Shown piece by piece: positions 12,101-39,604 of a stretch of DNA of 64,000 bases. This DNA is from Scleroderma bovista (Eukaryota; Basidiomycota; Agaricomycetes; Boletales; Sclerodermataceae): NCBI GenBank assembly GCA_037178675.1, contig JAYMGJ010000555.1, forward strand, positions 60,198 to 124,197, given 5' to 3'. The notes beneath the pieces are model-generated. The model searched no databases and had not been told where the DNA came from. It saw only the letters and a program-made list of their open reading frames with translations. The position numbers were made by a program, and so were the translations under genes. Every line of letters starts with the position of its first letter. Position 1 is the stretch's first letter.

Positions 12101-13978
12101 TCATGGAATCATACGAATGAGCCCTGAAAAGATTGTGCCGCATATTAATGGGGGGTACATAATGTGTTATCACCATATCTGTGGGTTGGACCCAGACATT
12201 GCTATCATCCATGGTAATTGATGGGCCCATATTGCATTGTAATCAAAGCATACAGCAAAGCTGTATAGAATCAGCACAAAGCAGGGCATACCGCTAGGCA
12301 TGCAGGACCGCGGAAAAGGAAACACCCGCGGGCTTTTTGTAGTAAATGGAAAAAGGGAATACTTAATGGGATGGAAACTGTTGTTGGTGATACTACAAAG
12401 CACCATGAGGGGGGGGGGGGGGAATAAATAGGATGGGATCCGCGGATGCTACATATCCATGGTTTGTTTGGTTGGTACACCACAAGAGATAGGAAAGGAA
12501 ATGAGGTAGCATAACAACTAGAGCAGGACCTTGTGGGTGACATACCGCAGTATACTAATAAGAATGATGGAATGCTACAGCAGGTGTGAAGACGCACATC
12601 AAGAGCAATTAAATACAGTATCCTGTTAGATATATTAGTATATCACCCGCAGGAACAAATTACCAGCGGATACACGATATTGCTAGAGAGGTAACCCAGC
12701 ATACAAGTGCTAGGTAGTACAGTGCCAAAGGTAAATTTGCCTAGAATGAAATCCGGGTGCGAATGAGTTCATCACCGTGGGTGCAGCGGGTAGATACAGG
12801 GAATGGGTGCCAATGATTACTAGTGATTATGTTCCCTACTGGTAGCACAGGAGAATGGTACTGCGGTGGCGAAGTATACTAATCAGCAGTCATTAACACT
12901 TATTGAAATTTATTAGATTATGGTGAAATTAACAAAGTGTAAGGTTTTGAAGGTAATTAGTCAGTGGGATGTTGCTGAACACATGAGCCGTGCGGTATGT
13001 GACTGAACCCGCAGTCATTTCAGCAGGCACAACTGAAACACCCACACAAGAATACATTATGTTCAAAATAGCATAGTAAGAATGTGTAGAGAAACATTAA
13101 TATATAGATCAGGACACATTAAATATGAACCAAGCCATGGTTGCCTCAAGGCTTAGAACCCACGGTGAATTAGTTTTCAGAGGCCTTAGAAAGACAATGC
13201 AGGTACTTCCTGGAAATTAACCGATTATATGGAGGTGTGGATAACAAGTGGATGATACTATATACACTATATACACTATCTACTAGGATAACAGTACCAA
13301 TCAAAGAGAAGAGGGATACCACAAACAGCATGCTATGCTGCAAAATGATTGGGTAGAAACTTATGCTAGATGAAAACAACAGATAAATATACAATAACTT
13401 AATATGGCATGGGAACTGACAATGGATTGGTCGGATTGGGTTGGGCAGTGCCAGGTACCACAGTCAATTCAATTGCATATAGCTACTGCTGTTCTGCTGG
13501 TAGGATGCTAGTTGAGGAACTACATAAAATAGACCGTGGTGACGGTGGGTAGATACAACCTTATCCGATCACCATATCAGTGTTTATTCAGATCATGGTA
13601 GTACCCACAAAAAATGGGGTGTACACTAGTTTAATTAATATAGAAAAAACATAGAGACATGGTCTACAAAAATATAAATTACACTGTGAAGAACAGGGGT
13701 TCACAAAGAGTTTCATATTCAAATACCTAGCCTGCTGAATGTTCAAAAGCCGCGGTTAGCCTCATTTGACATGGAATTAATTAAATTAATCACACCGGGT
13801 ACATTAAATCACTATTGAAAGACACAAATTATATATTCAAAGAATGCATGCATGACATTCCAGTACTCCAATGACACAAGTAAGTAGAAGACTTGCATAA
13901 AGGGAAAAAAGAAAAATTGTTTGGGTGTACAAAAAGAATAGTCCAAGAGGGAAACGTACAAAAAATGTAAGTAACAAA
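12101..13978. other. Left subterminal region without genes
   Basis: AT-rich sequence with no supported coding frame. It holds four CCGCGG palindromes (near 12308, 12326, 12440 and 13750) and a run of about 14 G at 12408. It probably belongs to the non-coding end of the giant transposon. Confidence 0.5.
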
Positions 13979-15844
13979 TCATGCGGTTGTATCCATTTGG
14001 GTATCCACCCCATCACCTACTGATCCTTCAACAATACCCGCGGGACCCGGTGCCGACACATCCGGTGATGTGACCACAATGGTGGGAGGGGGGACAGCGG
14101 GAGAGGGGACAGCGGGAGGGGGGACAGCGGGAGTATCCACGACCATTGTGGCATCTGAGGCATTTGTTGGAAGAGGGCGGGGGGGTGGCGCGTAGTCTTC
14201 ATCAACACCAGAGTCCACCGACCGCGGTGAGTGTGCATCCCCGGTGGGCAACCACAGAGTCACCAGCAGGTCAGTTGGCACATCGATTGGATGGGGATCT
14301 GCAACTGAGGAATCCTGGCCCTCCAGCAACGCAGGTGCTGTAGATGGAGACTGACCTGGCACCTGGTCGTCGGGCATATCGGCGGTGGTGTGGAAGGTGA
14401 GGCCAGCAGATGCAGGGACCGAGGAAGGTGAAATGGGACCTGGATCGGATGCAGGACCGTCCACAGGTGTGGATGTTTGCACAGCAGCGGTGGGCAATGG
14501 CATTGGAGGGGCAGCAAGCGTACTTGATCGCAAATCTTCCACCAGCTGACGAAGGGTGTCCATTTCCAGCTCCTGGGCATTGAGTCTTCGATTAACATCG
14601 CCCAAATCCTCTTTCAACTGTGAGCATTCGCTGCAGGCACTCGTTGTCACAGTGGTCGCATGCTCGCTCCATTCCGCACTTGTGCTGCGGTCGCAGGATT
14701 TTGACAGCCATTTTGGTCGGACTATAACCACTCCATCAAATTCTGTTTAGACTTTCAGAAGAACACAAAAAGGAAATATAATCACTCACTTTCACGCCTG
14801 CCCCTTGATGGCCCAGGTGTAGGAGGGCGGGGTGCAGACCGGGGATGTGGGGTATCATCTGTGGGAATGGGACTCTGAGCTTTGCGCTTGCGAGTCGAAC
14901 GGGAAGGGTTGACGCGAGTAGGTGCCAGTGGGACTGTCTTCGATGGAGGAGACACCCTGCGACTGGCTTGCCTGGTTGGTGCACGCGACCGCGACCGAGA
15001 CCTCCCCCGTTTGGATGCCAGGCTGCACCCATGCTTTGATTTGTTGCATTGGAAGCATGCACGATCTTCTTTCCTCGCACAGGGCAGCTGGCGACGGGCA
15101 CAGTAGTCGCACCAGTCCACAGCTGGAAAGATTGGAAAGTCGGGTGGGGGGTGTTGATCCTCGTCGCTGTCAACCATCGGAGCAGACTTGACACATTTGC
15201 GAGGGCGACGGGACTGGCTATGTCCCCATGTCTGCCCATGCCCACGACCGCGGCGACTCCCTCTGACTTCCTCACCACCTGCTGCCTGTGACGAGCTAAC
15301 CTCATCATTACTCACCTCATATTCCCTTCCCTTCCCCTTATCCACAGCCTCTGTCACTTCCTCCTCTCCGTCCATCTGGGTGTCTTCCATTGCTGCTGGA
15401 ACCGCTCCACCGTCCTGACATGGCAGACTGCGGTGTGACCATGGATGGTCAGCGACGGTCTCCAATGGGCACTGTAGAAGTTCAGGCCACCTCGGCCACT
15501 CCGTAATACCGTCGTTTGGGTCTTCCAGGTACCAGTCAAGGGCCATGAGCATGGGAGGAATGCTCAAACCGTGGGGTACGTCTCCCGCAACTGCTCTAAC
15601 ACGGTTCTGCCAGGTATCAGCTAAATGAAACTAGCATAAAATGATAACTTACCAACTGAGTCCAGACATCCCGCTGAACCTGCATCCACAGCGTCATATC
15701 CTTCGTTTTCTTAATGGTTGCGACCGTTGAGATGATGACGGATGTGGCATCCGCAATAATTTCGGCAGGCATCATGGGAGTGTCAAAAAGACCGGACAGG
15801 TCAGATGTGGGTGCGAGTAGGGCAGTTGAAGGCTGGGCAGACAT
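13979..15844 (-). CDS. Zn2Cys6-like protein of the giant transposon
   Basis: Three exons (15844-15653, 15606-14790, 14742-13979) joined by GT-AG introns of 46 and 47 bases give an uninterrupted frame of 590 residues. Near residue 230 lies a cysteine cluster C-x2-C-x6-C-x7-C-x2-C-x6-C (CDYC...C...CFQC...C), which fits the spacing of fungal Zn(II)2Cys6 DNA-binding domains. It is followed by an Arg/Ser-rich basic stretch. A likely coiled coil (CSQLKEDLGDVNRRLNAQELE) precedes a Pro/Ala/Ser/Asp-rich tail with a repeated AVPPP/AVPSP unit. The DNA-binding role is inference; Zn2Cys6 domains are known to read CGG triplets. It is transcribed away from the gene at 16665. Confidence 0.65.
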
Positions 15845-16664
15845 AGCAGAATGAGACAAAGGGTGATTGGAGGTGGATAGCAAGGACGCGGTGTGGAATC
15901 CTCACGGCAAGGTTGAATATTTATTATGGTTACGTCATCCAGGGTCCACTACGGCCGCGGTGTCAGATTGACAGATGTACATCACACTGCGTGGAAATGA
16001 TGGCCGATGACCTAGAATGTCGGAGAAGCCTGCCACATGTCTGGAAATAAATGTATGTAAGAATTGTATGTTACTCCACCAAAATATCATATTGAATAAT
16101 GCTGGTAGAGAACACGTGACAATCATGAATTTATGAAGATCATTACATTGCATCTGCTTCCATTGACTACGGGAAAATAATACATACTTCAGACTGTTCA
16201 AACTACATGAAAAAATGGCAAATTGTACAGACAGTAATACCACAATCTCACCCAAAATATGAAGTTAGACAAATCAAACCAGAGTCCACTCCATGGGTAA
16301 AGCCGTGGCTGACAGGTAATTAGTAAAATTTGACTGCCATGGCCACCACATGATGGACAAGTCAAATAGTCAAATACCTACCATTATATGTAATATGTAC
16401 CACTATCTGCCTGGAGGATAACATTTGGGATATTGCCCGTGATATTATACACAATTACCACGGATGATGCCCTATTACAACCTAAATATGGAATAATGGG
16501 CGCATTGTAGATACATTCCAGGCTGCATTCCACCGATGACATCACGCGGCTCATTGTGCCTGCGGGAAATGTCTTATATAAGCTAGTCCATACAATATAT
16601 ATTTATTCCGGACCTGTCCATCCCACCCTTGCACTCCGTCGTACCTCGTTCCTCTATTTACATC

Positions 16665-18132
16665 ATGAGTGGGCAAAGGAATGTGAGATTCATAGATGAT
16701 GGCGCAGCCAACTCAGGTATGTCTATGAATCCAAGTCTCCTCAAAGTAACTCCCAAACTTATTTTCATTAGCTTTATTCGGTAGCCCAGGATGGATACCT
16801 CCCATTAGAAATGCTACATGCACCTTGTGTTTGTATATCTCTCTCGATATTAGGCACTGCTAATCTAATCATCGCAGCGAGCAATAGTAGCACTGGATGG
16901 TCTCCACCGCGGATTCCAGCAACCGCGGATTCCACAATGCTGGTGGACACCAAAGTTTCAAATAGTCCTTCCGTGAGGTCTCAAAGGGATTCAGGTATGT
17001 ATTTATTGTTTTATATTTCTTATAATTCATTTCATGTTTGCAGCTAGTGAGAGGAGCACAGGCGGGTCTCCAACACAGTATCTGCCGTCCATGACCGCAG
17101 CTATGATGATTTCTCGGAGTGGGTCATGTATGTATTCTATTTGTTGCCTTTATTGCACCTTATAAAATCTTTTCAGCAAGTTCCAGTAGCAGCAGGGGTT
17201 GGTCTCCACCACACGTCCGGCCGCGTATGATCCCCGGTGCTGCAATGTCGGTGCACAGCACCAGTCCAAATATTCTCCCGGCCTTGGAAGTCACGCTTCG
17301 TAAGGATGAACAAGAGCAACTGTTGCGACAAGATCAATCCTCCACTACTGATTGGGATCCTCCCACACTCCCACCAACAGGGAGACATCCCCACGATGCT
17401 GGGCCCCACAACAAATTACAAGAGGTACCCCTCCCCAAAGACCCCAAGAAATATTCCGCGGGTTATCCACACCACTCTCACCGCTAACTCAATCATCCAT
17501 GTCGATGTCGCCACACCCTGCATCAACTATTGATAGCGATACTGACAGGGAACAAATTTCCCACAAGGACCAGTGGCCAAGGGTTATTGGTACCAGTCCC
17601 ACCACCCACAATAGAGTGCTGGAGAAAGGAAAGGCGCCGGAAACCGAGCTGAATGAGGTGACCTGTCCAAAGGTTGCGGAGGGTAAGTTTGCCTTCGAAT
17701 TTGATACTGTTAGCTCACAGGTCCATAGATAAATGGTGGCAGTTAGTCTACAGTATGGCCAACATGGACATCTATGGCGGTAGGTTCAATGGGCCGCGGC
17801 ATGAATGTGAGTTCTCGTTGGATAATATTGTATTGATACTTACACAGAAATAGTAACAACAGCCCGTGAAATAGCTGCAAGATTTCACCCAAAGGATAGA
17901 AGGGTCACCAAACTGGACGACCTCTATGACAAACCGATGGTCGCGATGTACAAACAATATGTGGATAGGTTGGTAGAAGAGACACGAGAATGGAGAATGG
18001 AGAAGGCTTGTCAATGGCCGGGCACAGTATGCAGAGATGAGGGAGAGACTGGTGCACATGGACAAAGGTGAGGGATCCGACTCAGACAATGGCATGTATG
18101 ATATGGAGGACTTGGATCCTACCATGTTGTAA
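16665..18132 (+). CDS. Ser/Pro-rich protein with repeated small exons
   Basis: The start MSGQRNVRFIDDG is followed by several small GT-AG introns. At least three successive exons each begin with a variant of the same unit (ASNSSTGWSPPRIP, ASERSTGGSPTQYLP, ASSSSSRGWSPPHVRP), each about 45-100 residues long, so exon duplication is likely. The C-terminal part contains a Lys/Arg-rich helical segment (REIAARFHPKDRRVTKLDD) and an acidic end (GSDSDNGMYDMEDLDP) stopping at 18130. The exact exon set between 17500 and 17900 is uncertain. No family is recognised. It shares an 820-base divergent upstream region with the zinc-cluster gene and contains several CCGCGG sites. Confidence 0.5.
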
Positions 18133-18920
18133 TTACATTCCTGTGTATATAGTGAACTGGAAAACAATACTTTCTCACTAATATATTTACATGCATGTAT
18201 GGTAACTACTTTCGGGATCTCTTTGGAATGCGGTCGTCCAGGTAGTCCTCAAGCCGCGGTGGAAGCCTCTTATGCTGGGTGGACTGCCGCTGTGCAGGCG
18301 CAGCCATGGCGGTAGGTGGCTCAGGAACCATTGGCACGATGCTGTCTGAATTTGCAGGCTCTGTGGCAAATTGTCCCGGAGGTGCCTTGTCACCGGTGGC
18401 AGGGCCCACGGTTTCAAACTGCACCCAGCGAGTACTTGTTCTGGCGTCTGGGAATTCTTGTTGTAAATATATATTATATATATAAGATACACAATGACAA
18501 ACTTACCTGTCATCTTGGCACCTCGCTTATCCTGTGGCTGGTCAATTGATGTTTTGGAAGGACCAGTGATTGCCTGCTGAGCTGCGGGAATACTTTTACC
18601 TAACGTAGATTTTTTTCCTGAACATATGTTAGAAGTATGATAAGATGTGTGTATATATTAGAATACTGGTACCTTTAATTTCAGTTGCCGTCTTAGCCGC
18701 AGTGACCGATGCAGCTCCATTTTTTGTCCTATGGGCAGCAGTGCTTTTCCCTGGGAGCACACCATGTTTCTCTGAAGTTATGTAATATATGAAACGCATT
18801 GAAGGTTTAACAGCACACAATACTCTTACCTTTTGTCTTGGCCCCTGGTGTAGTTGCTCCGACCTCTGCTGCAGGAAGGGAAGGCACCGACGTTTCCTGC
18901 TGCATTGTAGCACTAGTCTC

Positions 18921-19543
18921 TGTCACGACCGTGACATCCGATCACCCTGTACCCTATTGTCCGATCGCGTCCACGCGTTCGCCGTCCGTCTATTGTATGT
19001 ACTCCCTTTTCCGTTTCTTGCTATCTGTCCTGTATCGCCACCGATCGGTGAGCGCGTTGTCCGTTCTGTCTCTCTGTACTATTACCTAATATGTTTCCTT
19101 TCTTGTTTCCGGTTACTATACGTTCCCGTCCCGTTGCATTACTAATACGATACTCACCGGTAATCCGGTTATCGCACTTACCGTACTTACTCAGCGCGCA
19201 GCGCGACTGCGCTCGTCATTCGTCGGTAATCCCGACTTCCCGTACATCGCCTCATCCGTTCCACTCAGTATAAATACCTAGATACTCGGTCTGTTGTAGT
19301 TCAGTTCGAATATCGAATAAGATACTTCTCATCTGTTCTCCCTGCGCACTCTCCGTCTCTGTCTCGTGCAAGCACTCGGTCGTAGACCGTTTACCCTCGG
19401 ACTCTCCGTCAGACCCTCGGTCGGCCTTCCTATTACTCGGGAAGCGCGACTACGCTACGTAGCATCTCGGTCTTACCGCTAGACCAACCCCTGACCCCCT
19501 GACCCCTCGTAGAGATCAGATCGGTGAAGAACCGGTCTTGACA
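18921..19543 (+). repeat. 5' LTR
   Basis: Begins TGTCACGACC and ends TCTTGACA. It contains a TATAAATA box at 19269-19276. AGTTCGAATAT at 19303-19313, 34 bases downstream, is where transcription is expected to start and is the proposed self-primer. Confidence 0.95.
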
Positions 19544-19545
19544 GT

Positions 19546-19556
19546 ATATTCGAACT
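19546..19556 (+). promoter_or_regulatory. Self-priming primer-binding site
   Basis: ATATTCGAACT, two bases after the 5' LTR, is the exact reverse complement of AGTTCGAATAT at 19303-19313 in the LTR, 34 bases after the TATA box. In Tf1 of fission yeast the first 11 bases of the transcript anneal to such a site in place of a tRNA. I saw no obvious tRNA 3'-end complement here. Confidence 0.7.
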
Positions 19557-19584
19557 CGAGTCTTGTACGAGTTCACAACCATCT

Positions 19585-20928
19585 ATGTCCAGGACAATCC
19601 AAACCCGCTCGCGCACTGCTCGCGCAAACAACCCAGAACCCTCAGCGTCCGACACTCGTCGGGCAGCTGCTTTGAGCGCCTTGACTAGCCTCAGGCGCTC
19701 ACCCGACTCTGTCTCCCAGTTCCAAGGCTTCTCCGCTCGGAGAGCCTCCTCCCCCGCTCAGCGTCGCCCACCTGGGGCCTTCGTCGAAGACCTCGGCGAT
19801 GACCTAGGTGATGACCATCCCGATGACAATGGCCCCGGTGACGGTGGTCCCGGCGGTGATGGTCCCGACGACCCAAACCCTGATGATGGCGGTGAAGACC
19901 CTATTGAGGGCATCCCCGACCAAGAAGAGGCCGGTCTAGTCATTTTCAATAACCTCTCCATCGCTATCGACAGACTCGCGCGATCTTCGCGCTCGTCCGA
20001 GTCTTCGTCTCGCACCAAGGTGCGCGAACCCGACACCTTCGACGGGACCGATCCAAAGAAGTTGCGCACATTCTTAGTCCAGTGCGAGCTCAACTTCCAG
20101 GACCGACCGAAGGCGTTTCGTACTGACCGAACCAAGGTCACATTCGCGCAATCCTATCTGAAAGGAATGGCTCTCGAATGGTTCGAGCCAGACCTACTCG
20201 GTGCAGGAGACCCCCACAACCGTCCAATCTGGATGACCGATTGGGAAGAGTTCGTCATTGAACTCCAAACCACCTTCGGTCCTCACGACCCTGTTGCCGA
20301 CGCTGAGCATCAGCTCGACCACCTCCGCATGAAGGAAAACCATCGTGCCAACAGATACGTGGTTGACTTCAACCGTATCGCGTCCCAGATTCGGGGCTAC
20401 GGCGATGGCGCCTTGCGTCATCACTTCTACACAGGTCTCCCCGACCGAATCAAGGACGAGATCAGCCGCGTCGGTAAACCGCGCACTCTGAACGGTCTTC
20501 GCGTCCTCACCCAGGAGATCGACGCCCGATATTGGGAACGCAAGGAAGAGGTCGCTCGTCAGAACAAGACCTCTACCAACACTAGTACCAACACCCCCAA
20601 CACCAAGTCGGGTAAAACCGATAAGGGTAAATCCTCGGGCAACGCTGCCCAGTCCTCTTCGTCGTCAACCCCGACTCAGAAAACTAACAAGTCGGGCAAG
20701 ACTACTGAGCTTTCGGACAAGCTCGGCAAGGACGGCAAGCTGACCTCTGAGGAACGCAAGCGCAGGTTCAACATGAATCTGTGCATGTTCTGTGGTGCAA
20801 CTGGCCACAAGGCCAAGGACTGCCCCAAGTCAGGCTCTCGAGCAGCCAAGGCTAGGGCGGCTACCACCACCACTACGAACACCACGTCGGAAGCCAAACC
20901 GACGGCCTCCACTGAGGCAAAAAAATAG
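19585..20928 (+). CDS. gag: Gypsy Gag polyprotein
   Basis: 447 residues. The N-terminus is basic and disordered, followed by an acidic Gly/Asp/Pro-rich segment (about residues 70-112). The capsid-like retrotransposon gag domain spans about 145-330 (KVREPDTFDGTDPKKLRTFL, ALEWFEPDLL). A Ser/Thr/Lys-rich linker leads to one CCHC zinc knuckle near residue 405 (CMFCGATGHKAKDC). The frame ends at TAG (20926), immediately preceded by seven A bases that form a -1 slippery site into pol. Gag forms the virus-like particle and binds element RNA. Confidence 0.9.
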   Translation: MSRTIQTRSRTARANNPEPSASDTRRAAALSALTSLRRSPDSVSQFQGFSARRASSPAQRRPPGAFVEDLGDDLGDDHPDDNGPGDGGPGGDGPDDPNPDDGGEDPIEGIPDQEEAGLVIFNNLSIAIDRLARSSRSSESSSRTKVREPDTFDGTDPKKLRTFLVQCELNFQDRPKAFRTDRTKVTFAQSYLKGMALEWFEPDLLGAGDPHNRPIWMTDWEEFVIELQTTFGPHDPVADAEHQLDHLRMKENHRANRYVVDFNRIASQIRGYGDGALRHHFYTGLPDRIKDEISRVGKPRTLNGLRVLTQEIDARYWERKEEVARQNKTSTNTSTNTPNTKSGKTDKGKSSGNAAQSSSSSTPTQKTNKSGKTTELSDKLGKDGKLTSEERKRRFNMNLCMFCGATGHKAKDCPKSGSRAAKARAATTTTTNTTSEAKPTASTEAKK

Positions 20929-20966
20929 ATAGCAACTCCCGAGACTCCGCACAGAGTGGGAGTTGC
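20919..20966 (+). promoter_or_regulatory. Gag-Pol -1 ribosomal frameshift signal
   Basis: The heptamer A AAA AAA at 20919-20925 is in the gag frame directly before the TAG stop. After a 6-base spacer a 9-bp stem forms between GCAACTCCC (20932-20940) and GGGAGTTGC (20958-20966), with a further 4-bp inner stem (20944-20947 with 20954-20957). After a -1 slip the frame is open with no stop straight into the pol ORF. All three elements of a canonical -1 frameshift site are present. Confidence 0.85.
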
Positions 20967-24644: not shown

Positions 24645-24732
24645 GTCTTTCGGATCACCGAACAAAGTCTATTGATAGTATACAAAAACAAAGTAAAAAG
24701 AAAAAAGAAAACTAAATACAAATACGGTCCGA

Positions 24733-25786
24733 CTACTCAGACTCGCCCTCTCCGTCTTCGTCTCCCGACTCTTCGCCTTCCCCGTCCGTCTCGTCCGACT
24801 CCTCCTGCTCTTCGCTCCCCTCGGGCATCGCCTTGCCCTTGCCTTTCGGATCCCTCGCATCTGCGACCCTCTTCGTCTCCCAGGCTACCCCTTCTACCTT
24901 TCGACCGAGCTTGACCAGTTCCCTGGTGTTGCGGTCGATCGCCGCCACAATTTCCCCGAGTCGGCGGTCTAGGACCAGCGCGACTGGGTCTGGCCGATTC
25001 GATGGCCCAGCCACCGAGAACCCTCCCATCGCCGCCTCGATCTCCTCTGTACTCGCGGCGTCGGCGATCGTCTTCTTCGACCGTTTCCTCTTTTCGCCTC
25101 CTCTCGGCGACGTGTTTGCCTCCACCGTCTTCTCGCTTTGCTTTCTCTTCTCTCCACTCGCCGACCTCTCCATCGCGGCCGTCGACACACCGAAGGTGCA
25201 CTTGATCTTGGATCGTTGACACCGACTGCAAGTCGGTGTGCGCGCACCGTCGGCCAGCTCGCACCCGCCACTGTTGCCGCTTCGCCTGCATCGGTCACAA
25301 GGGGGCCTGAACCCCATTATGCCCGTGTTCGAGCGGGCAGTCACCTGTCGGGGCTATTTCAATAATAAATCAGCAAAAATCAAATAAAGAAAAAAACCAA
25401 CGGCGCACCTTAGGCTTCGGCCCCAGCCCTAAATGTTCCCGCATCGCCTCGCCAGCCGCCAGCGACTCAGCCTTCTCTCTCGCCCTCACCTCGGCCTCGG
25501 CCTTGCGCCTCGCCTCGAAATCCGCTCGCGCCTTCACCTCCTCTTCGGCTTTCCGCTTCTCTTCGGCGACCCTTCTCGCCTCTTCCTCAGCCTTCTTCCT
25601 GGCAGCCTCCTCCGCCAACCTCCTCGCCTCTTGCTCGGCCGCCTGTTTCATCAATCGCTCCCGTCGCCGACGCGACTGTTCGTCAAACTTGGCGATTTGG
25701 ACTTGGATCGAATCGGTCGGCTTCCCTTCCAACTCGGGCGAGGGGGCGCGCGTCCAGTCGACGTTGTCGGTGTTGCTAGCGGACAT
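24733..25786 (-). CDS. Antisense zinc-cluster and coiled-coil gene inside the Gypsy
   Basis: Two exons (25786-25409 and 25353-24733) joined by a 55-base GT-AG intron keep one frame and encode 332 residues. The start is a true ATG. The N-terminal half is an Arg/Glu/Ala-rich coiled coil (EEARRVAEEKRKAEEEVKA). After the splice comes a cysteine cluster C-x2-C-x8-C-x10-C-x2-C-x6-C (CDRC...CSRC...KIKC), close to the Zn2Cys6 layout, then a helical region (DRRLGEIVAAIDRNTRELVK) and a Glu/Asp/Gly-rich tail. It lies between pol and the 3' LTR, opposite to the retrotransposon transcript. Function is unknown; the layout resembles the zinc-cluster gene at 13979-15844. An acquired regulator of the element is one possibility. 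Confidence 0.7.
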
Positions 25787-29318: not shown

Positions 29319-32300
29319 ATGGGGAAGTCCAAGGTAGTTAAAGCTGGACCATCTACACCTGTAATGCAGGTGACATGGAAGACAGTAAGATCAGGTAGAC
29401 GATCCAAGGACAAGATAGTCAAGGCTCCACCCCGAAAGAAGGCACGCATTGAAAGAGCTGATGACAATCAATCCCCAACTCGGGCTGGTTCATCTGCATT
29501 AGAGCACACCAATTTCTTTCCTGATGAACCTGTAGAGGCATATGCTGCCATAGATGACCCACCTCTGCGAGCATGTAGATTGCCAAGGAACCAGGTCAGA
29601 TTGATCCCCACCCCCCTTTAATTTCAGAGTTTATTTCATCCGACCATAGGATTAGAGTTTAAAAGTCCAGTCCAGTCCGGTTTTTTTGCCTTTTTTGGAA
29701 GAGGACCGGACTGGACCACTTTTGGAAGCCTGGGAATGGTTCATGGACCGCTTAAAGACCGGTCCAAAACTGCTAAAAAAACCAGTCCAAACCACTAAAA
29801 AACCGGTTTTTTTGCATTTTATTGATGTTTTTCACATCAAAGGTGTGTCAGATAGCATCTATGAGCATGGGTATTCAAACCCTGACCAGTGAGGTTTTGG
29901 TCCTTGAATTTCAGTAAGTAGGATCAATAACATAAAGTCTGCTGGAGGGAATGCAACACATCATGAGCTTGGGAATGACAAAGTTTCCATTCATGATTCA
30001 TCAATGTTTTGTCACAGGTAGCATCTGCAGCTACAACTGCAGACAGTAAGCAGAGAGGATAGTCTTCTGGTTGGTCAGTTGCTATGTTTGTGGCATTGAG
30101 GCATTCACAAATAACACTGACAACTGGCATGTACAGCTGTTGAATTATTGTCCACGAATCTATACAGCACTGTAGCAAAATATGTTTCTGAAGTAAGGTC
30201 CCTTCCTGACAATCTGTGGGATGGTTTCCTAAGGAGGCCTTATCCAAACACAGATGGTGCCTGCCAATAGTATGAGGTAGTTACATTACAAACAAACCAA
30301 AGGTACTAGAGTTTAAAAGTCCAGTCCAGTCCGGTTTTTTTGCCTTTTTTGGAAGAGGACCGGACTGGACCGCTTTTGGAAGCCTGGGAATGGTTCATGG
30401 ACCGCTTAAAGACTGGTCCAAAGTGGTTGCAACCGGTTTTCAAAAAGACCGGTCCAAAACTGCTAAAAAAACCAGTCCAAACCACTAAAAAACCGGTTTT
30501 TTTGCATTTTATTGATGTTTTTCACATCAAAGGTGTGTCAGATAGCATTTAAATACTATTTATAGACTGTAGTAATTATATACAAGTCATTATATATTTA
30601 TTTGTGCCATATTTCATCCAAAAAGATCAGTTTTACACCCCTTAAGACCCACTGCAGGCCAAAATTAGCCTGTAATATAGGGGTTTTTATACCATATATG
30701 TATTGCTTACATAATGCGGTTGCAACCGGTTGCAACCAGTCTTTTTCATCATTCTCAAAAGTAGGCAACTGGCAACTGCAGTCCGGTTGCAACCAGTCCA
30801 GTCCAGTCCAGTTTCTGGTCTTTTTGCGGTCCTATGGACTGGACTTTTAAACTCTACATAGGATCACTATCTCCAAGACTGGCTGCCCTTCAAGGCCAGA
30901 TATTTGTCCGTGCTGCTGGAAATGGAGTCACCCATGGAATCAAAAATCTGCATGTGCTGTGGAAAGGATGCGACATTTAGGTGCACAGAGTGTGCTCATA
31001 GACCAATGTTCTGCAGTAACTGTTGCTTGGATGCACACCAGCAGAGTCCCTTCCATCGGATTCAGAGATGGACTGGAACCTTCTTTGAGGACTTCTCTCT
31101 TTGCCTGGTGTGTCATTTCTTTCACCATATCTACATGATAATTAATAGAGTAGATTGGTTTTGTGATGCACTTGGGCCACGGTGGAAAACCTTGTCCCAG
31201 AGGGGGATATAGCCGCGGGAATATTGCAAGCAACGATGAAGAGGCTTGGGAAGATATGGAGGATGATGGGCGACCGCCTCATCTGACTAGACCACAGGAC
31301 AGAGGTTGTCTAACCTTGGTGCACACAAATGGAGTGCACTTTTGTGATATTCAGTACTGCAGCTGCAGTGGTTCCAAGGATTCACACCTACAGCTCATGA
31401 TGGCCGGCCTTTTCCCTGCAACAACCAAGAGTCCCAGGTCCGCATTTAGCTTCCAAGTGCTGGATGATTTTATTTGGGATAATGTGGAATGTGGAACGAC
31501 CGCGATGAACTACTATAGTAAGCTGCAGAGAGTGACATCCAATGCATTCCCGCATTCTGTGCCGGTGAGTAAAGTAGCCCATTCATTACCGTGGTACTGA
31601 TGTAGCCATGACAGAATAGGTACAAGGAGCTTCTGAGAGTGTCCAGGGCATGGAGACTTCTGAAACTTCTCAAGTGGCAGGGATTTCATGCAGGGTCGTC
31701 AGACCCTGGGCCAGGGGAGCTGGTCCTCTTTTGCCCGGCATGTCCTCAACCGGGGGTCAATATTCCACCCGTGGGAGAGGTGGATCTAGCGCAGTGAGTT
31801 ATGATCTTGTACCCTTGACAAATCCTACTGATAATGGTAGCTGGAAATATGCTCACATAATTGCGATGGATGGAAATTTCAAAGCCGAGCATATGTTGCT
31901 CAAATCAGCTCCTAATGAGATCTGGTTGATGGATGGGAAGGGATTCATGGTAACATCAGGGGCTTATAGAACATATTTAGCAGGGAGTGCGAATCGAATA
32001 GAGGTAAGCTATCCATCCCTTGAGCCGCGGTCATTTACCAACCTGCGGTGGCTGTCAATGCCGCGGTCAGAAATCGGACTGCAGCAATCACCGGGCAGTC
32101 AACCAGGCTAATTCAAATAGAAGTCAGTTGGCTTCAACCGGAATTGGTGGGTGTGCCTGTGCAAGACATGGCTGCTTTATTCCCCATGCCATGGTGGATT
32201 TTCAAAAGGGAGAGCAGTATGTCCGCGGTATACCATGACAAATTGACATTGACTGGTGACTAGGCAAATCAACATGGACTATGCCCTGGTGCACGCAGTG

Positions 32301-34034
32301 CGCCATGGAATGGGCCAGGAACAGCAGGTGGTAAATTTCTATGACATCAATTGTCAATACAGCAAAAATCTGCAAAGGCAGATAGAAGGCAATTGGTTCA
32401 TATCTCTTCCACCAGCGTTAAGGATCCAACCTGGAATTGGAATTTGGCATGTCCATGGACACCAAAGTGAATGTTTTGTGAGGTATTCCCCAAATTTCAT
32501 TCCTGGTGTTGGCAATGTGGACAGGGAAATAATGGAAACTCTGTGGGCTTCCTTAAATATTGTTTCCCCTTCTACACGAGGAATGGCTGCCCCTCATCGG
32601 CAAGAAATGCTTGACTTCCAAATGAACGATAGTAACTTCTTAAAGATGGTCCGCATGCGTGAGTGGTCCTCAAGTGTGCAATATTGGAGCAGTATTCACA
32701 ATTTCCAGCTTTGTCTTTGAAGAGGAAACTGACAATTGCAAGATGAAATCTCACATCATCTAGTGATTCCTTTGCAAATTTGGATGCAACAGTTCCCCAG
32801 CACCTCCGTCAAATTTGGAAGGACCAGGAGACAAAGGCGCTTCTTGAAAGGTTGACAAATCTGAAGGCAATGGATATATTTGAAGTCCAATTGGAAAAAG
32901 GTAAGCCTCACAGTGGAAGATAGATAACAATTTTGATTTTGTGGGGTAAGCCCCAAGCATTAAATCCGTGGAGATGAAGCTCATAGAAATGCCAACCGCG
33001 GGTTCACCGCGGGGATCCACCACATGGATGGCCAGAGCCCTGAGAGTGGAAGAGGCACAGGTAGTCCTCTCATTGGATGCACGAAAGATTGATGCAAGGG
33101 CTACTGAATCCCAAAGGCTCGACCTTTCACGCCAACATGACAGGCTACAATCCCAGATCAATAGTTTGGTGCAGACCATGGCAACATTTCTGGGCCCAGA
33201 CTGGGACAGTACACTTGATGGGATTCACGGAGCAGATACTGATAGTGATGAAGATGATACATTCATTACTCTGGCTCCAGGGCATGCTGAGCACACCATA
33301 CTACCACTTCCGTCCTATATAGGTGTGCCGCGCTGCCATGAGCTAGGGCTGATTGGCCTGGTGGAGCAAGAACTTCAGCTCAGACAAGGTCAGGCCAATG
33401 ACACTTTACATGAAATACGACTTGGTCTAGCAGATAAGGTGGTGTTGTTTCGGACAGAGGTCAGACATGGGAGGAACTATGTGGGGACCACCCGTGCATG
33501 GAAAAAGGTAGCTGACCTGGATGCAATGGTAAAAAGATATGCCGTGGTCTACCACCGTTGCAGAAAGCAAATGATCGCCTTAGAGGCCGAGCCGAGGATC
33601 CTGGACCGCTATAAAGTACTTTCCAAAAAGGATCTCACAGTCAGCACCGCGGTCTCAGATCCCAATGCAAGGGGACATCACCATGACTCTTTGGCATGGT
33701 TTTGGACTATGGATATACCCAAAGACACTGATAAAAATGATTGGATGTCAGAATGTAAGCCTTTCCATGCACCATCATATACCCTTCAGAATAATGATTC
33801 GGACCAGTTTACCATGTCCACTGGCTGCGGGAAAAGGCAAAGCGAGACAGATGGACTGAGGAAGTGGAGTTGATAACTGCAGAACAGGGTTGGACACATA
33901 CTTTCTTCAGGACCCGGGCAAATCGCTGGGAGGAAAATGCCTCCGAGGCTTCATTATGTGGTGACCATGGCTTGGCATGTTATGCAGCAAGGCAATATGA
34001 CATGTATAACAAATTGGGTAGACTTTGTCAGTAG
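29319..34034 (+). CDS. KDZ transposase with CxC2 cysteine cluster
   Basis: About ten exons. The first eight boundaries hold phase: 29319-29594, 30862-31107, 31154-31564, 31615-31793, 31841-32003, 32071-32216, then from 32264. Residues after the second exon form the CxC2 cluster (CMCCG...C..C...FCSNCC...H) and the HRIQRWTGTFF motif of KDZ transposases. Later come RYKELLRVSRAW and LVLFCPACPQPG, then the catalytic core with Asp in MDGNFK (31869), the conserved CACARHGCF/VDFQKGE region, Asp in FYDINCQY (32343) and Glu in VDREIMETLWA (32526-32537). The tail has QLRQGQANDTLHEIR and LREKAKRDRWTEE. The last part (from about 32650, and 33755-33850) needs uncertain introns or a frame change, so intactness is unproven. 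A 1.2-kb element sits in intron 1. Confidence 0.85.
29653..30856. mobile_element. Composite TIR element in transposase intron 1
   Basis: Outer ends are TAGAGTTTAAAAGTCCAG and its complement, flanked by the exact 8-bp duplication CATAGGAT (29645-29652 and 30857-30864). The content is three parts: a left-end piece of the 0.55-kb element (29653-29862), a copy of 2188-2632 with part of a decayed KDZ gene (29863-30305), then a full 0.55-kb element (30307-30856). Two element ends therefore moved the passenger fragment as a unit. The duplicated octamer contains the intron's 3' splice site. Confidence 0.85.
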
Positions 34035-34360
34035 TCCCATGACTGCTGCATATTATTTGTGTCGTTGAGTCATAATTTGTGATGTTCATTATTATGGGGA
34101 ACATCAGTCAGATAATTCAACTATCATTCAATGTGGACAGGAAAAAATCATAATTGTCATGTGTCACTATTGGGATGGCCACACTACTCATTTGTGCCTC
34201 TCCATAATCTATCCGCGGATGCCGCCCATTTGTCCTCCAGTTCATCCCCTGCATTGGTCAAATATTCCACCATAGCCATGCGGTCAACCAGATGTTGCAA
34301 CACCATGTTTTGATGAAAGATCTTCTCATCAGTTTCTTCCAACATTTGCTCAGTTTGTAG
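34035..34360. other. Spacer between transposase and the 171-residue gene
   Basis: About 330 bases at convergent gene ends, with one CCGCGG near 34213. No coding frame is supported. Confidence 0.4.
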
Positions 34361-34977
34361 TCAGAGATCCTTCAGGCCAATGTGGGGGGTTTCTGGGACA
34401 TCAAATAAAGCCGGGATTGCAAAGTCCCCAGGCTATTGACAATTTTATTAGCTTATCATCACACATGAATGTAACCTTACCTGGTATTCGGCAAAGAATT
34501 TCTCTGCCTCTGTGACCAGCTGGGTGAAGGTTGTCCGCGGTATATCTCCACTATTCCCCCACACCCACCACTCCCACGGTGTACTGTGTGTGCTGCGGAC
34601 TCTAGCCTCCCGATGATACACCTTGAATACATTTATTTCTTTGATTTGTTCCATCAAAGCTTCTGCATCCGGATCCGCCACGGATACCCAATCCATCACA
34701 TGTGCTGCGACCGCGGGGACTTGCATCACTAGCCCCTTTCTGTTGCACGCGGCAAGTAGCTGCTCCAAAAGTGCCTACATGGGGGATATGGTCATATTCA
34801 AAGTTTCAATATGGAAGAACACACCACTTCTGCATGAACATGTCCATACCAGTTGATCTTCTCCAGAATGGCATGGTCACTGCTTTGCTGCAAAGAATAC
34901 ACGAACCACCTGAATCGGATGCCGATATATTGCAATGTCAGGGACAGCCTGCGCGCAACAATTGCTTCAGAATCCAT
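34361..34977 (-). CDS. Unknown 171-residue transposon protein
   Basis: Three exons (34977-34828, 34774-34481, 34432-34361) with GT-AG introns of 53 and 48 bases. Each exon is a multiple of three, giving 171 residues from MDSEAIVARRLSLTLQYIG to ETPHIGLKDL. It is rich in helix-forming and Trp residues (TPWEWWVWGNSGD) and has no signal peptide or membrane segment. I recognise no family. It lies between the KDZ transposase and the TET/JBP gene and carries CCGCGG sites within its codons, so it belongs to the element. Confidence 0.55.
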
Positions 34978-35426
34978 CGATGCAGGATCAGGATCAAAGG
35001 TCAATATTTATAATAGAATCTCTTGTATTCCCACGTGCCACCGGACCATTGTTCCTCAAACAATGATCACGGTACAATTAAAAGTTAGTTATTTCCGCGG
35101 ACACAAAATTACTGCCACATTGCTTCCATTCAAATCTGATTGGTTTATCATTTGTGTTCCAATTTGAATGAGATATATCAGTTCGGCAGTGGCTACCCAC
35201 AGTCAGCATATAGGTTGTTCCCTGGCATGGCTAAATTCCATTTTTGCAATTGGTAGGGATATTTGGCAGTTATTGTTATTGTTATTTATTTTCAATTGGT
35301 GACTGATTTCGGTAATTGGTGACCAATTCCTGCCATATCCTGATTGCCGCAGCATGGGATCCCGGGATAGGTCAATACGCATTCTGGCATATCTTCCTTT
35401 CTTTTCCCCTCAATTCAATCCCCTCC
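34978..35426. other. Divergent spacer upstream of the TET/JBP gene
   Basis: About 450 bases between the 171-residue gene and the TET/JBP start. It has one CCGCGG (35095) and AT-rich sequence with TTGTTATTGTTATT near 35274. It probably holds both promoters. Confidence 0.4.
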
Positions 35427-36688
35427 ATGGCTAGTCCTGTGTCATATCCAACCAACTATGCGCTCTCTCAACGTGTTGCTGGATACATGCGACGGCGCTT
35501 TTGTTCTTTGGCATTCCAGGACTCACTCCCCGTGGTACCTCCCATTCCTCTTGATCTCCCTGTTGACCTTTCGGTTGGGATGCATCAAATGGTGGCCACT
35601 TTGGTCACTGCATATCAAAATTGAGGTATGTATTTCCAATATCTATTTGGCAAGGTACTTATGTGTTTCTAGTTGAGTCTGGTGTGGACCTCTTGAGACT
35701 GGCGGAGTCATTGGCAGCAATGGAGCCTGGTACCAATGTGGATAGGGAGCAGTCCTTTCTTTCCAAGTTCGCTCCAACTCTCTCTGGTGTCCTGGATGAA
35801 CCCTCTATTATTTTGGGGGAGGGTGGGACTGTAGCACTCTGGTATCTCCCTGGTGCCCTGGCACGCCCAACATAGGTATGCCCCAATACTGCCTATTTTT
35901 GACCATGTTCATTAATAAATGCAGGCAAATATTCTGCATGCTTTAAGTCTGCTTCGTACACAACTGGCCAGCAGTATAACTGGGCGGACCTGGCGATCAG
36001 AACCGCGGTATTTTAATAGGGAAGATAGGCAAGTGACCGGTTGTCTGGAGTTATCTCCTGCAATGCACCAGATGGGTCATTATGTGGGTATATATCTATT
36101 ATCGGATGGACCTACTCATCATCCCATATTCAGCATGAAAATGCCTCTATATCAGCGGACCTTAACACACCCACGGGATTTCAGTGGCTGCAAGATATGA
36201 TATATCCTTCTGCCATCGTATCGGGTGCGTTGTTGATTATGCATCCACAGCTCTATGAGGACGGTATGTGAGGAATGAGTACATTGGAGGATTGGTCTTC
36301 TATGTATGACCCGGTAATGAACCACGCCCTATCCCTCTGGCCTACTGCATTCACCAATATTTCCCTTATCGCCAATCGGTCGACCCCACTTCACCGTGAC
36401 CCCCAGTCACGTGCCAGCTGGTACGACGTCATTGTCAATGTTGGGGAATACACCGATTGTGTAATGGCCATCCCCACCCTCGGCATCGAGCTAGTCTATA
36501 AGCCAGGTACCACGGTTGCATTCTCCGGGAGGCTCCTCCGGCATGGGGTCAATGCTGTTGAAGGAAACCGGTATTGTTTGACTTACTATATGAGGGATAA
36601 TATCCATCAGTGGGCACATGTTCCACGGTGTGCCGACTGGATGAGGATCAATGGTGTGGAGCATTTGTTGAGGGCTACTGTAGTGTAA
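35427..36688 (+). pseudogene. TET/JBP-like 2OG-Fe(II) dioxygenase with three nonsense codons
   Basis: Exons 35427-35625, 35673-35875, 35925-36083 and 36134-36688 splice in one frame. The C-terminal domain carries the double-stranded beta-helix signature: iron ligands His-x-Asp in TPLHRDPQS (36392-36400), the strand ELVYKPGTTVAFSG, and the distal His in LLRHGVNAVEGNRYCLTYYMR (36542), with the Arg expected to bind 2-oxoglutarate. This fits the fungal TET/JBP family that oxidises 5-methylcytosine and is linked to KDZ transposons. Stops at 35622 (TGA), 35873 (TAG) and 36269 (TGA) lie in the frame, each one C-to-T change from a sense codon. A shorter product from the ATG at 36275 would keep the catalytic residues but lose the N-terminal half. 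Confidence 0.75.
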
Positions 36689-36733
36689 ATACATGGAGGT
36701 ACTTGTAGAAATATGATTGTCATAGAAAATTTA

Positions 36734-37012
36734 CTAAAAAATCTTAAAATATGGTCGCGACTTACTTAGTGACTTATCCTGTGCTCTGGCTGTCTGGAAG
36801 TGAGCCATTCTGCTGCGGCTGCTTTTAGGGAACATCTCCTGAGCATTCATTAACTTACCCACCTGTATATTTTGGTACATCAATAGCGTCCCTGGGGCCT
36901 TTATAGATAAATCATTGTGCCATAGCTTAGGCACCATTACCCTGCCGCAGCTTTGTCCTAAACCGGATTCCAGCCCACCCCTCATTCCTGGGATTGCAAG
37001 ATATGGGCTCAT
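36734..37012 (-). CDS. Small open frame, unknown
   Basis: 92 codons from a real ATG. The residue pattern (KLWHNDLSIKAPGTLLMYQ, AQEMFPKSSRSRMAHFQTAR) looks protein-like rather than random, but I recognise no family and no splice partner. It may be an exon of a decayed transposon gene next to the right subterminal repeats. Confidence 0.3.
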   Translation of the reverse strand: MSPYLAIPGMRGGLESGLGQSCGRVMVPKLWHNDLSIKAPGTLLMYQNIQVGKLMNAQEMFPKSSRSRMAHFQTARAQDKSLSKSRPYFKIF

Positions 37013-37079
37013 CCATATTAGACAGTAAATTTAATATCAGCCCACCTATTATACTTGAAGCTGCAAACTATAGGCCCTC

Positions 37080-38000
37080 TTATATGGTAGGGGACAGTAT
37101 ATTTGTAGCCTACCCATGACACATGGGATTGTGGAATTACATTTGGGCTTACTCGTATCCCATTGCAACAATCAGTTCTCAGCCCACTGGTACTACTCCG
37201 TGTTAATGTATGCGGGCTCACCTGTTTGTTAGGGGACACAATTATTTCGGCTGACCTGATACACACGGGACCATAGAAAAACAGCCCTTTCTATACACCA
37301 TATGACCATGCTTGCCCCAGCCCACCAATTCTACACAACATCAATGAATATGGGCCCACTCACACAACAAGGGCCAGTGTTATTTGGGCCCACCTATATC
37401 ATAGTGGACAATAAATATACAGCCCATTGGTGTCATATGGGATGATTAAATTTTGAATGGGCTCACCTGTATCCAATTGAAACAATGAATTCTCAGCCCA
37501 CTCGTGCTACCTGTGTCAATGTATGGGGGCTCACCTGTTTGTCAGGGGACAGCATTCCCTCGGCTGACCCGTGTCACACAGGACCATATAATAACAGCCC
37601 TATCATACACCATGTGTACATGCATATCACAGCCCACTCGTGCTACATGACAGCAAAGAATATGTGCCTGCCAAAACTGTAGGGGACAGTGGTATGTGGG
37701 CTGACCTATAGCATAGGGACATTATATACACAGCCCACCTGTGTTATATGGGATGATTAAATGATACATGGGCTCACCTGTATCCCATTGGAACAAGCCA
37801 CTATCAGCTCACTTGTACTACTCGGTGTCATTGTATACAAGGCTCACCTGTTTGTTAGGGTACAGTAGTAATCTGGCTGACCCGTATCTATGGGTCCATA
37901 TAATAACTGCCCATCCATTTTACATGGGGTGGTGTAATATCACCATCCCCCTATAAGAAGGATGATGGAATAATATATGCGCTCACGTGGAGCTCATTGG
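37080..38000. repeat. Right subterminal array A: three units of about 315 bp
   Basis: The block starting CAGCCCACT, then a GTGTCAATGTAT-like word, GGCTCACCTGTTTGT, GGGGACA and GGCTGACC recurs at about 37171, 37492 and 37803 (spacing about 321 and 311). Partial units extend on both sides, with repeated TATGGGATGATTAAAT. No genes are present. Confidence 0.7.
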
Positions 38001-38139
38001 CACACATATTTGTGTGCTACTATGGAACATGGGCCCACTAAGCCTGCCTTTATTCCACCCGCGGGTAATCCATAGTTCTGGAACTGAATAGCCAACTAGT
38101 GGTGATAAACTTGTGGTAGTATTTTGTTGTGATCAATTG

Positions 38140-39540
38140 AGATAGCCAAATGCCTGATGGTCAACCACTCCCGGTTGCCCACAGTCTTCCTGTGGTGGCA
38201 TTGATAAAGGAATTTCTTGTCAACTACTGAGAGTAAAGGCCAAGTAGGTTTTCCATCTCTGTTGGAATCCATAGTGGTTGGTGGTCAACCAACAGGAGGC
38301 AGTAAACCCGTGGTAGTGAAGCCAGTGCTGCTGACAGAGTGGTTGAATCACCCCTTATTGTATGTACTGGTACTTCTCCCACAGTAGATCACTCGGTAAA
38401 TATCCAACTGGCTGTAATCCATCCGTGGTAGTAGAGCCAGTACTGCTAGCCCACACATTACCTTTGCATTCCGGTAAATCAATTAATGCGCATTGGTAGT
38501 GAAGTCATGGTGGTCAACCTGGTGGCCTCAACCTAGTAAGTTAACCTGCGGTATGTTAACCGCGGTATGTCACCCCCTGTCCACCCGGTAGGATAGCCCT
38601 TGACAGGTTTGGTTGGATCACCCCTTACTATATGTACTGTTACTTGTCTTCTCTAGCCAACCAATTACCTAGTGAATCTATTAATGTACATTGGTAGTGA
38701 AAGCCATGGAGACCAGGTTGACTGAAAGTATCAAGCCGACCCGCGGTAAGTGAACCCGCGGTAGGTGGTAAGGTCAACCCCTGTAATCCATCTGTGGTAG
38801 GACAGCCCTTGGCAGAGTTGGTTGGATCACCACTTACTAGATGTACTGGTAGTGTCTTCTATGGCCAACCAATTACCTTTGCATTTCAGTGAATCTATTA
38901 ATGTACATGGGTAGTGAAAGCCATGGAGTGGAGTCGACCTGGTTTACAGAGGTATTGAGTCAACCTGTGGTAAGGAAACCCGCGGGAGGTAAACCTGCGG
39001 TAAGTCAATTCCTGATAAGTCAACCCATGGTTTGTCACCCTCTGTGATCCATGGTAGGTCAACCTTTGACAGGGTTGGGTGGATCACCCCTTCCTAGACA
39101 TACTGGTACTGGTCTTTTCTAGCCAACCCATTACCTTTGCATTCCAGTCAATCTATTAATGTTCATTGGATGTTATCAAAGCCATGGTAGTCAAACTAGT
39201 TGACCGGAGGGAGTGAGCCAACCTGCAGTAGGACAGCCCGCGGTAGGTCTACCTGCTTCAATCCATCTGCGGTAGAATAGGCCCTGGCAGGGTGGTTGGA
39301 TCACCCCTGTCAACCCGCGGTAGGACAGCCCGCGGTAGGACCCCCTGCTTCAATCCATCTGCGGTAGAACAAGCCCTGGCAGGGTGGTTGGATCACCCCT
39401 GTAAACCTGCGGTAGGTCCCCCTGCTTCAACCCATCCACAGTAGAACATGCCCTGGCAGGGTTGGTTGGATCACCCCTTACTAGATGTATTGGTACTTGT
39501 CTTTGCCAGCCAACCCATTACCTTTGCATTACAGTAATCC
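38140..39540. repeat. Right subterminal array B: degenerate units with CCGCGG boxes
   Basis: A block GGTTGGATCACCCCTTACTAGATGTACTGG (written here in parts: GGTTGGATCACC, TACTAGATGTA) followed by AGCCAACC, ATTACCTTTGCATT and CTATTAATGTACATTGG recurs at about 38331, 38612, 38820, 39075 and 39463. Between the blocks lie ACCCGCGGTAGG-like boxes and decayed forms (CCTGCGG, CCGTGG, CCATGG). No genes are present. Confidence 0.7.
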
Positions 39541-39604
39541 TGGGCTGGTCCATTAATGTGCATTGGAGTAAAATCCTGGCTGGCCCATATGACATGGTGA
39601 CAAC

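Follow-up and report, generated by a model that had tools for sequence, protein, structure and literature searches.

A CCGCGG word spread through a KDZ/TET-JBP transposon of Scleroderma bovista, and a zinc-cluster protein as its candidate reader

Background

The maize transposon Spm encodes a protein, TnpA, that attaches to CpG-containing repeats in the subterminal regions and favours demethylation of the element from which it comes; the TnpA sites lie at the element ends only, no dioxygenase takes part, and the fold is another one, in all of which it differs from the fungal element described here. In Arabidopsis, according to the accessible parts of two papers (PMC5735166, PMC10398659), VANDAL transposons carry family-specific short words in tandem arrays, which are read by the element-encoded VANC proteins, with DNA methylation as their opponent. 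The present study concerns a DNA transposon with a KDZ transposase and a TET/JBP dioxygenase, found in a 64,000-nucleotide stretch of the genome of the basidiomycete Scleroderma bovista (assembly GCA_037178675.1, contig JAYMGJ010000555.1, positions 60,198 to 124,197; hereafter the window, part of our contig C554; the assembly has 51.8 Mb in 850 contigs), throughout which the hexamer CCGCGG is repeated.

Elements of this general kind have been described from Agaricomycetes under the name Kyakuja (Kojima, PMC12730594), likewise with a KDZ transposase, a TET/JBP gene and a 7-bp target-site duplication; the available text reports no dispersed word and no zinc-cluster gene, and has no match for either CCGCGG or "subterminal". 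More broadly, no word of this kind in KDZ elements is described in the titles and abstract openings of the literature searched, with subscription journals mostly outside its scope. The TET/JBP enzymes of mushroom-type transposons raise the question of how so many of them are directed to their targets, and of why the genome studied here keeps at least 150 matches to Tet_JBP; it also has at least 166 to KDZ (best candidates scored in both cases).

The likeness to the VANDAL/VANC system is that the family is transposon-encoded, that the words differ between related families of a single genome, and that a diverging element-encoded protein is the reader or, here, the candidate reader. A family-specific enriched short word is likewise present, clearly so for CCGCGG, whereas the CCGG-type words of the remaining families overlap somewhat (see below). 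The differences are also plain. VANC words are mainly noncoding, whereas CCGCGG also overrides codon choice; the candidate reader is of Zn2Cys6 type and is accompanied by a TET/JBP dioxygenase; the transposon superfamily (KDZ) and the kingdom are others; and binding and loss of methylation have been demonstrated for VANC, whereas for the KDZ/TET element both are proposed.

Results

CCGCGG in the window element

11897..39806, plus strand: KDZ/TET-JBP DNA transposon, GAGCCCATGCACCTACTT ... AAGTAGGTGCATTATGTG, with two insertions; its own DNA 19,084 bp
18921..26542, plus strand: nested Gypsy-type long terminal repeat (LTR) retrotransposon, CpG not depleted, no CCGCGG
29653..30856, unstranded: 1.2-kb insertion with 22-bp terminal inverted repeats, not in the C288 copy, no CCGCGG
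12308, 12326, 12440, 13750, 14038, 14222, 15248, 15955, 16907, 16923, 17456, 17794, 18254: CCGCGG words, first part
26648, 27118, 27134, 27288, 27501, 27699, 27916, 28960, 31213, 32025, 32061, 32223, 32996, 33007: CCGCGG words, middle part
33647, 34213, 34535, 34711, 35095, 36003, 38059, 38560, 38741, 38756, 38980, 39238, 39315, 39330: CCGCGG words, last part
38412..39563, unstranded: right subterminal repeats with CCGCGG and its decayed forms, including two pairs of words at a distance of 15 bp (for example CCGCGGTAAGTGAACCCGCGG)

The window contains 43 CCGCGG, 41 within the element, in spacers and reading frames alike, and two outside it (50816 and 53238). The original prediction, made from the letters alone, had estimated about 41 in about 19 kb, none in the nested retrotransposon and two elsewhere, and all of this is borne out; its further statement that the motif skips the insertions and stops at the element ends holds in its first part, and the element itself extends past the motif span of 12308-39336.

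With 1.1 copies expected from the dinucleotides of the element's own DNA, CCGCGG ranks first among all hexamers (z 37.7), so that no other CpG hexamer is equally enriched. It is followed by words that overlap it, then by its CpG-decay product CCGCAG/CTGCGG (22 vs 5.1) and, after a few AT-rich words and CCAGTC, by CCACGG/CCGTGG (22 vs 7.1). Among other CpG palindromes ACCGGT alone is slightly raised (10 vs 2.9); seven of the ten copies sit in the Gypsy edge or the small insertion, and the trimmed element has 3 vs 2.7. In sets of 100 Markov simulations the mean was 1.2 (maximum 5) at first order and 3.0 (maximum 8) at second order; order-3 chains, which have already learned much of the word, gave a mean of 17.7. 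The word shows no excess in the genome as a whole, which has 7400 copies against 7239 of the reversed word GGCGCC.

Reading frames, defined here as stretches between stops rather than proven exons, are no exception. Twelve such stretches (6,204 bp) have 18 CCGCGG at 17 distinct places, two stretches being overlapping, against a mean of 3.0 and a maximum of 9 in 2000 synonymous-codon shuffles; the remaining 12,986 bp of the element have 24. The word thus overrides codon choice in the reading frames, as had been suspected, and the Markov and synonymous-shuffle controls led us to reject composition or codon bias as its cause. By eye, the flanks of most sites are unrelated to one another; close to both element ends there are pairs 15-18 bp apart.

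Sister copies and decay of the word

A 20-kb stretch with an intact copy of the element, C288, has 38 CCGCGG where 1.3 are expected, so the enrichment recurs in a sister copy; neither of the two outcomes named beforehand as refuting the observation, equal enrichment of other CpG hexamers or none in sister copies, was therefore seen. Block-by-block alignment with the window gives 60 word places, of which 19 are intact in both copies, 22 in the window only and 19 in C288 only; all 41 differences are CpG transitions. A third copy, C212, compares similarly: among 44 places, 13 are common to both, 16 are found in the window only and 15 in C212 only, with 29 of the 31 differences being CpG transitions.

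In the left 2.3 kb, five copies taken together have 14 word sites, against 6 in the window copy alone (15 were listed, two of them one site split by a gap). The states at these sites are CCGCGG or its CpG-decay forms, except for one CCGCTG, one gapped row and one insertion edge. Because sites decayed in one copy survive in others, the element that spread must have been denser, with about six words per kb at its left end, and perhaps some 100 in total if that end is extrapolated to the whole. The present words of the window are a decayed remnant of this denser set.

Decay is not peculiar to the word. Between the window and C288, 19.6% of CpGs inside the word (47/240) and 19.3% outside it (211/1092) differ; the corresponding values for C212 are 20.5% and 21.7%, and non-CpG bases outside the word differ at about 0.6%. 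Since CpG decay is equally fast inside and outside the word, the copies look CpG-methylated, with no special protection of the word in them, and dead copies appear to lose CCGCGG through methyl-CpG decay. The proposal of a methylation-readable tag has no more than indirect support; word CpGs decay about as fast as other CpGs. Six relatives have 84-87% identity at the left end; with them 5 of the 7 word sites there are common, with a few odd states, and 2 of 7 differ by changes beyond CpG decay, so that words were also gained or lost during the evolution of the lineage.

A zinc-cluster gene as candidate reader

13979..15901, minus strand: candidate reader gene, open reading frame (ORF) stretches 15617-15901, 14782-15630 and 13979-14746
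15025..15111, minus strand: Zn2Cys6-like cluster CDYCARRQLPCARKEDRACFQCNKSKHGC, spacing CX2CX6CX7CX2CX6C
30862..33873, plus strand: KDZ transposase gene, extent judged from ORFs, with further ORF stretches up to 33873
35919..36688, plus strand: TET/JBP dioxygenase gene, domain stretch 36272-36688 (PF12851, E 1.5e-14)

The KDZ transposase includes a CxC2 cysteine cluster (31154-31600, PF18803, E 1.7e-24) and the KDZ domain (32253-32720, PF18758, E 1.1e-30), which together place the element in the KDZ superfamily, and the TET/JBP gene within its limits places it among TET-bearing KDZ transposons. The frame matched by TET/JBP in the window copy (C554:96361-96792) has one TGA; the gene is also present inside the matching C288 and C212 copies.

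Zn2Cys6 zinc-cluster proteins of the Gal4 type read CGG triplets, and their consensus cysteine spacing is CX2CX6CX5-12CX2CX6-8C. This spacing is found in the window and in L052, L054, L061 and L063-L067. The gene that encodes it in the window, with exon joints assumed from the ORF stretches, is laid out as a Zn2Cys6-like cluster, a basic RSRSR-rich linker, a segment in the following ORF stretch that by eye resembles a coiled coil, and a proline-rich tail. In a PDB search up to E 10, GAL4 chains were the sole matches, with cysteines aligned, at E 0.6-1.2 for single sequences and 2.4 for a profile, which is a very weak similarity. Pdr1/Pdr3 and GAL4 are host regulators with few sites per promoter, unlike the element-wide CCGCGG. 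Yeast Pdr1/Pdr3 bind CGG triplets in opposite directions, that is, CCGCGG (PMC3091778, in the part of the paper available).

The candidate reader gene has at least 156 matches in the genome, and proteins of the same family are also present in public sequence sets. Between the window and C210, where the TET match is a 188-amino-acid (aa) frame and a CCGCGG pair is present, 26 of 29 cluster residues are identical and 141 of 245 in the rest of the gene. The gene is under purifying selection (dN/dS 0.26/1.05), and CCGCGG has been retained between subfamilies in which synonymous change is close to saturated (dS about 1.05).

Words and zinc clusters across TET families

We sampled 30 of the at least 150 TET loci with 1.5-kb flanks, together with the longer stretches C288, C212, C280, C17 and C539; L022, being covered by L053, was excluded from counts. 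Families are labelled by word: A, CCGCGG; B, CGGCAC; C, CTCCGG; D, ACCGGT. All four words contain CGG.

CCGCGG is rich (observed/expected) in the window (41/1.1), in C288 (38/1.3), in the 188-aa TET class (51/1.3, seven loci) and in the C306 class (9/0.2, three loci). It is at or below chance in the B class (3/4.5, 14 loci), in the 181-aa class (0/1.7, five loci, including one 213-aa frame grouped with them), in C17 (2/2.1) and in C539 (1/0.6), with 4/1.4 in C280; the controls are 2/3.6 for the window flanks and 0/3.1 for the nested Gypsy. The idea that the word marks one transposon therefore needs widening: enriched throughout this element, it is common to several related KDZ/TET subfamilies. 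The families poor in it have words of their own, CGGCAC in B (288/21.1), CTCCGG in C17 (101/9.6) and ACCGGT in C539 (54/2.0), and in C280 and C17 the words drop to background past the element limits. The assignment for class C is the weakest; words proposed there from TET flanks (ACTATG, ATGGAA and CCGGTC) were replaced when the longer C17 stretch gave CTCCGG.

As in VANDAL elements, noncoding tandem arrays occur, with many B words at a period of 17 bp and many D words at 15 bp; CCGCGG is mostly dispersed and only in part arrayed, and in C539 10 of the 54 ACCGGT copies stand alone. In reading frames CGGCAC of B (7 vs 2.4) and CCGGTC of D (7 vs 2.2) exceed shuffles. An earlier formulation, in which all the words extended into coding sequence, was given up: the effect is strong for CCGCGG, modest for B and D, and absent for C.

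The related zinc clusters share the spacing CX2CX6CX7-8CX2CX6C, and their loops change with the word. An LPC..KED loop is common to the four CCGCGG classes seen (C210 CDHCARRMLPCARKEDRACFQCNKGKHGC, C64 CDHCAHQMLPCARKEDCACFQCNKGKHGC, C306 CDRCIRRALPCGVKEDGRACYQCMHTKHAC, and the window), and a PGRAC or PGWAC loop to those of CGGCAC (C280 CIKCVQRDRRCAANPGRACWQCCCSKIAC), CTCCGG (C441 CERCKRAGRACPVKPGRACWYCNRGKAKC, with the word taken from C17, whose TET is of the same 181-aa class) and ACCGGT (C539 CDQCRKGDKMCLVKPGWACLNCNKVKMKC).

Genome-wide, closely spaced word pairs exceed their reversed controls: 148 vs 10 for CCGCGG-N5..13-CCGCGG, 346 vs 14 for ACCGGT-N9-ACCGGT, and 314/324 vs 22/58 for CGGCAC-N11-CGGCAC. 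Among the places listed, which are repeat copies and not independent events, 84/100 for B, 27/50 for D and 17/50 for A are no further than 3 kb from a Tet_JBP match, a zone that covers about 1.7% of the genome; 91/100, 42/50 and 39/50, respectively, have a TET, KDZ or zinc-cluster gene match at 15 kb or less.

CCGCGG pairs of two types, CCGCGGTAATTTTCCCGCGG and CCGCGGGTTAACTACCGCGG, were also seen at six places (C43, C140, C263, C472, C572:57-61 kb and C816) with no TET or zinc-cluster match nearby among the matches listed; KDZ matches lie near the C140 and C263 pairs. These may be KDZ elements that have the word and lack TET, or non-autonomous relatives.

Discussion

A proposed self-recognition word

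Codon override, persistence at dS of about 1.05, the different words of other families and the presence of a candidate reader make the view that the word is selected and serves self-recognition well supported. Starting from these observations and from the enrichment, the decay pattern, the co-occurrence of KDZ, TET and zinc-cluster genes and the purifying selection, we consider it rather probable that CCGCGG is a self-recognition word of this group of transposons, read by their own Zn2Cys6 protein and used with TET against silencing. The original observation is confirmed, and its interpretation is partly supported.

The mechanism might run as follows. An active element would have gained and kept about one CCGCGG per 160-170 bp (an extrapolation from the left end), in genes and spacers. 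The protein encoded at 13979-15901 would bind the everted CCG/CGG site, the word having its CpG because the reader's triplet contains one, and would bring the TET/JBP dioxygenase of the element, or TET-dependent derepression, to each word-bearing copy. There TET would oxidise 5-methylcytosine around the word and undo CpG methylation, so that the family stays expressed and mobile while unrelated transposons of the same genome stay silent. Once the reader is lost or silenced, methylation would return, and the words of copies that dropped out would decay by CpG transition. Sister families would work in this way as well, with a different CGG-containing word and a zinc cluster that has diverged. 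We put forward tentatively, as a possibility that still leans towards doubt, that each KDZ/TET family has a private CGG-based word, imposed even over coding sequence, and a diverging Zn2Cys6 adapter that steers TET to word-bearing copies only.

If this is so, dozens of selfish elements per genome lift silencing from themselves alone, and new families originate when word and adapter change together. A word and a zinc-cluster gene per family would be a concrete and testable answer to the problem of TET targeting, and would amount to a second, apparently independent origin of sequence-specific anti-silencing of the VANDAL type, with an enzyme that oxidises methylcytosine directly. Natural word-reader pairs may also serve targeted DNA demethylation.

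Several results weigh against the self-recognition account and its extension to every family. The comparison spans about 300 kb, with two long loci and one partial for A and one each for B, C and D, and the B, C and D words were picked after inspection of the sequences. Outside CCGCGG the words are not cleanly private, and CCGG-type words overlap between families: CTCCGG is high in B too (116/11.2), ACCGGT is raised both among the 181-aa TET loci (19/3.4) and in the CCGCGG class with 188-aa frames (17/3.1), and the 181-aa loci are led, among words counted, by CCGGTC (54/5.7) and not by CTCCGG (22/4.8). The B, C and D words lie largely in noncoding arrays, and the C word in reading frames does not rise above shuffles, 66 of 500 of which reach it. 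Among the matches listed, none for TET, KDZ or the zinc-cluster gene comes within 15 kb of 11 of the 50 CCGCGG pairs.

As to the reader, Pfam Zn_clus (PF00172) stayed below cut-off in our scan, with a best E of 0.059, 2 of 14 members matching and the window sequence unmatched, and AlphaFold2 models of the protein are of low confidence (predicted local distance difference test, pLDDT, 45 and 52), so that the Zn2Cys6 assignment depends on spacing, GAL4 alignment and context. The C17 stretch examined has no relative of the reader gene, the word of class C coming from C17 and its cluster from C441. Outside the window family the zinc-cluster gene lies 9-20 kb from the TET match on the same contig, and we infer that the two share one element there. 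Special protection of word CpGs was sought in the C288 and C212 copies and not found. Finally, in the available text of PMC12730594 retrotransposons of Coprinopsis and Laccaria are also reported to bear oxidised cytosine, and Kojima speculates there that these TETs work without target specificity, which is where the Kyakuja account departs from ours.

Alternative explanations

Subterminal repeats of CACTA or hAT elements serve transposase binding and strand exchange. By analogy, CCGCGG could be a binding site of the KDZ transposase, through its CxC2 cluster or another domain. This is the main rival, and we regard it as unlikely: the word pairs near both ends and the joint occurrence of transposase and word in the copies seen fit it, and against these stand the spread of the word over the whole 19 kb and its reading frames, distant from the ends, which end-binding does not need, as well as the CGG that all the words contain and the presence of a Zn2Cys6-type gene in every family looked at.

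Somewhat less likely again is that the zinc-cluster protein regulates the element as a conventional transcription factor or as a repressor of copy number, with TET acting independently of the word. Zn2Cys6 proteins typically are promoter-binding regulators, and the order of zinc cluster, linker and coiled coil (the last by eye) resembles Gal4 architecture; however, 41 sites, once perhaps 100, in coding and noncoding DNA are far beyond promoter needs, and a DNA-demethylating enzyme is also on the element.

A mutational or compositional by-product of CpG depletion, codon usage or repeat expansion is very improbable, for while some right-end sites are repeat copies and order-3 chains approach half the count, most flanks are unrelated, about 3 words would be expected in 19 kb even without CpG depletion, synonymous shuffles fall far short, equal enrichment of other CpG hexamers was looked for and not found, and other transposable elements sampled in the genome have other words or none. 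Least credible of all is a mark made by the host, in which a methyltransferase or a system resembling repeat-induced point mutation prefers CCGCGG and the element is its target, since the transition-type decay of word CpGs, which it would explain, is equal inside and outside the word, a host target would be lost rather than accumulated, and other TET families of the genome are without CCGCGG.

With self-recognition by a zinc-cluster reader remaining the preferred account, the other features of the element are given below.

Limits, insertions and other genes of the element

11890..11896, unstranded: left 7-bp target-site duplication CATCGTC, read from the element ends
39807..39813, unstranded: right target-site duplication CATTGTC, one CpG transition from the left CATCGTC
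27005..28981, minus strand: further element gene(s), function unassigned, ORF stretches 28622-28981, 28315-28608, 27661-28143, 27443-27772 and 27005-27424
34448..34774, minus strand: small element gene, with similar-looking ORFs in the C280 and C17 elements (by eye)

The limits follow from the sister copies: C288 matches end to end bar the insertions and C212 at its two ends, and the flanks are unrelated. On either side of C288 stands GACTAAT, a 7-bp target-site duplication without mismatch; none was seen at the ends of C212. The 7-bp length agrees with the Kyakuja lineage. The 5'-CA..TG-3' termini of that lineage are not found, the element beginning with GAGCCC and finishing with ATGTG. Kyakuja is characterized by having no terminal inverted repeats; in the present element a short inverted ATGCACCTACTT / AAGTAGGTGCAT is located just inside the ends. 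Among 20 ORF stretches of the element, Pfam gave convincing matches only to CxC2, KDZ and Tet_JBP, with CxC1 just below cut-off; four of the stretches at 27005..28981 (all except 27005-27424) were scanned, with no match above cut-off.

CpG observed/expected is 1.0-1.3 in the nested Gypsy (19000-26500) and mostly 0.3-0.7 in the host element (12000-18900 and 27000-39800), so the Gypsy either inserted much later or evades methylation. It has, at 24733-25353 on the minus strand, a zinc-cluster-like pattern CX2CX8CX10CX2CX6C, and in C539 (L059:6586-6684) a CX2CX6CX11CX2CX6C adjoins a Gypsy-like ORF; retrotransposons here may thus also carry zinc-cluster proteins. The insertion at 29653-30856, whose 22-bp inverted repeats are perfect and whose left end is repeated internally, looks like a small nested element with terminal inverted repeats.

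Close to the TET genes of families with CCGCGG (L021, L022, L029, L032, L033, L041, L045, L046 and L048), a second repeat, AGCCCA or GCTCAC, which has no CpG, is enriched (AGCCCA 29 vs 3.0 in L045). Units of the GGCTCACC type are also present in the right repeats of the window element. This second repeat may represent a separate array with its own reader.

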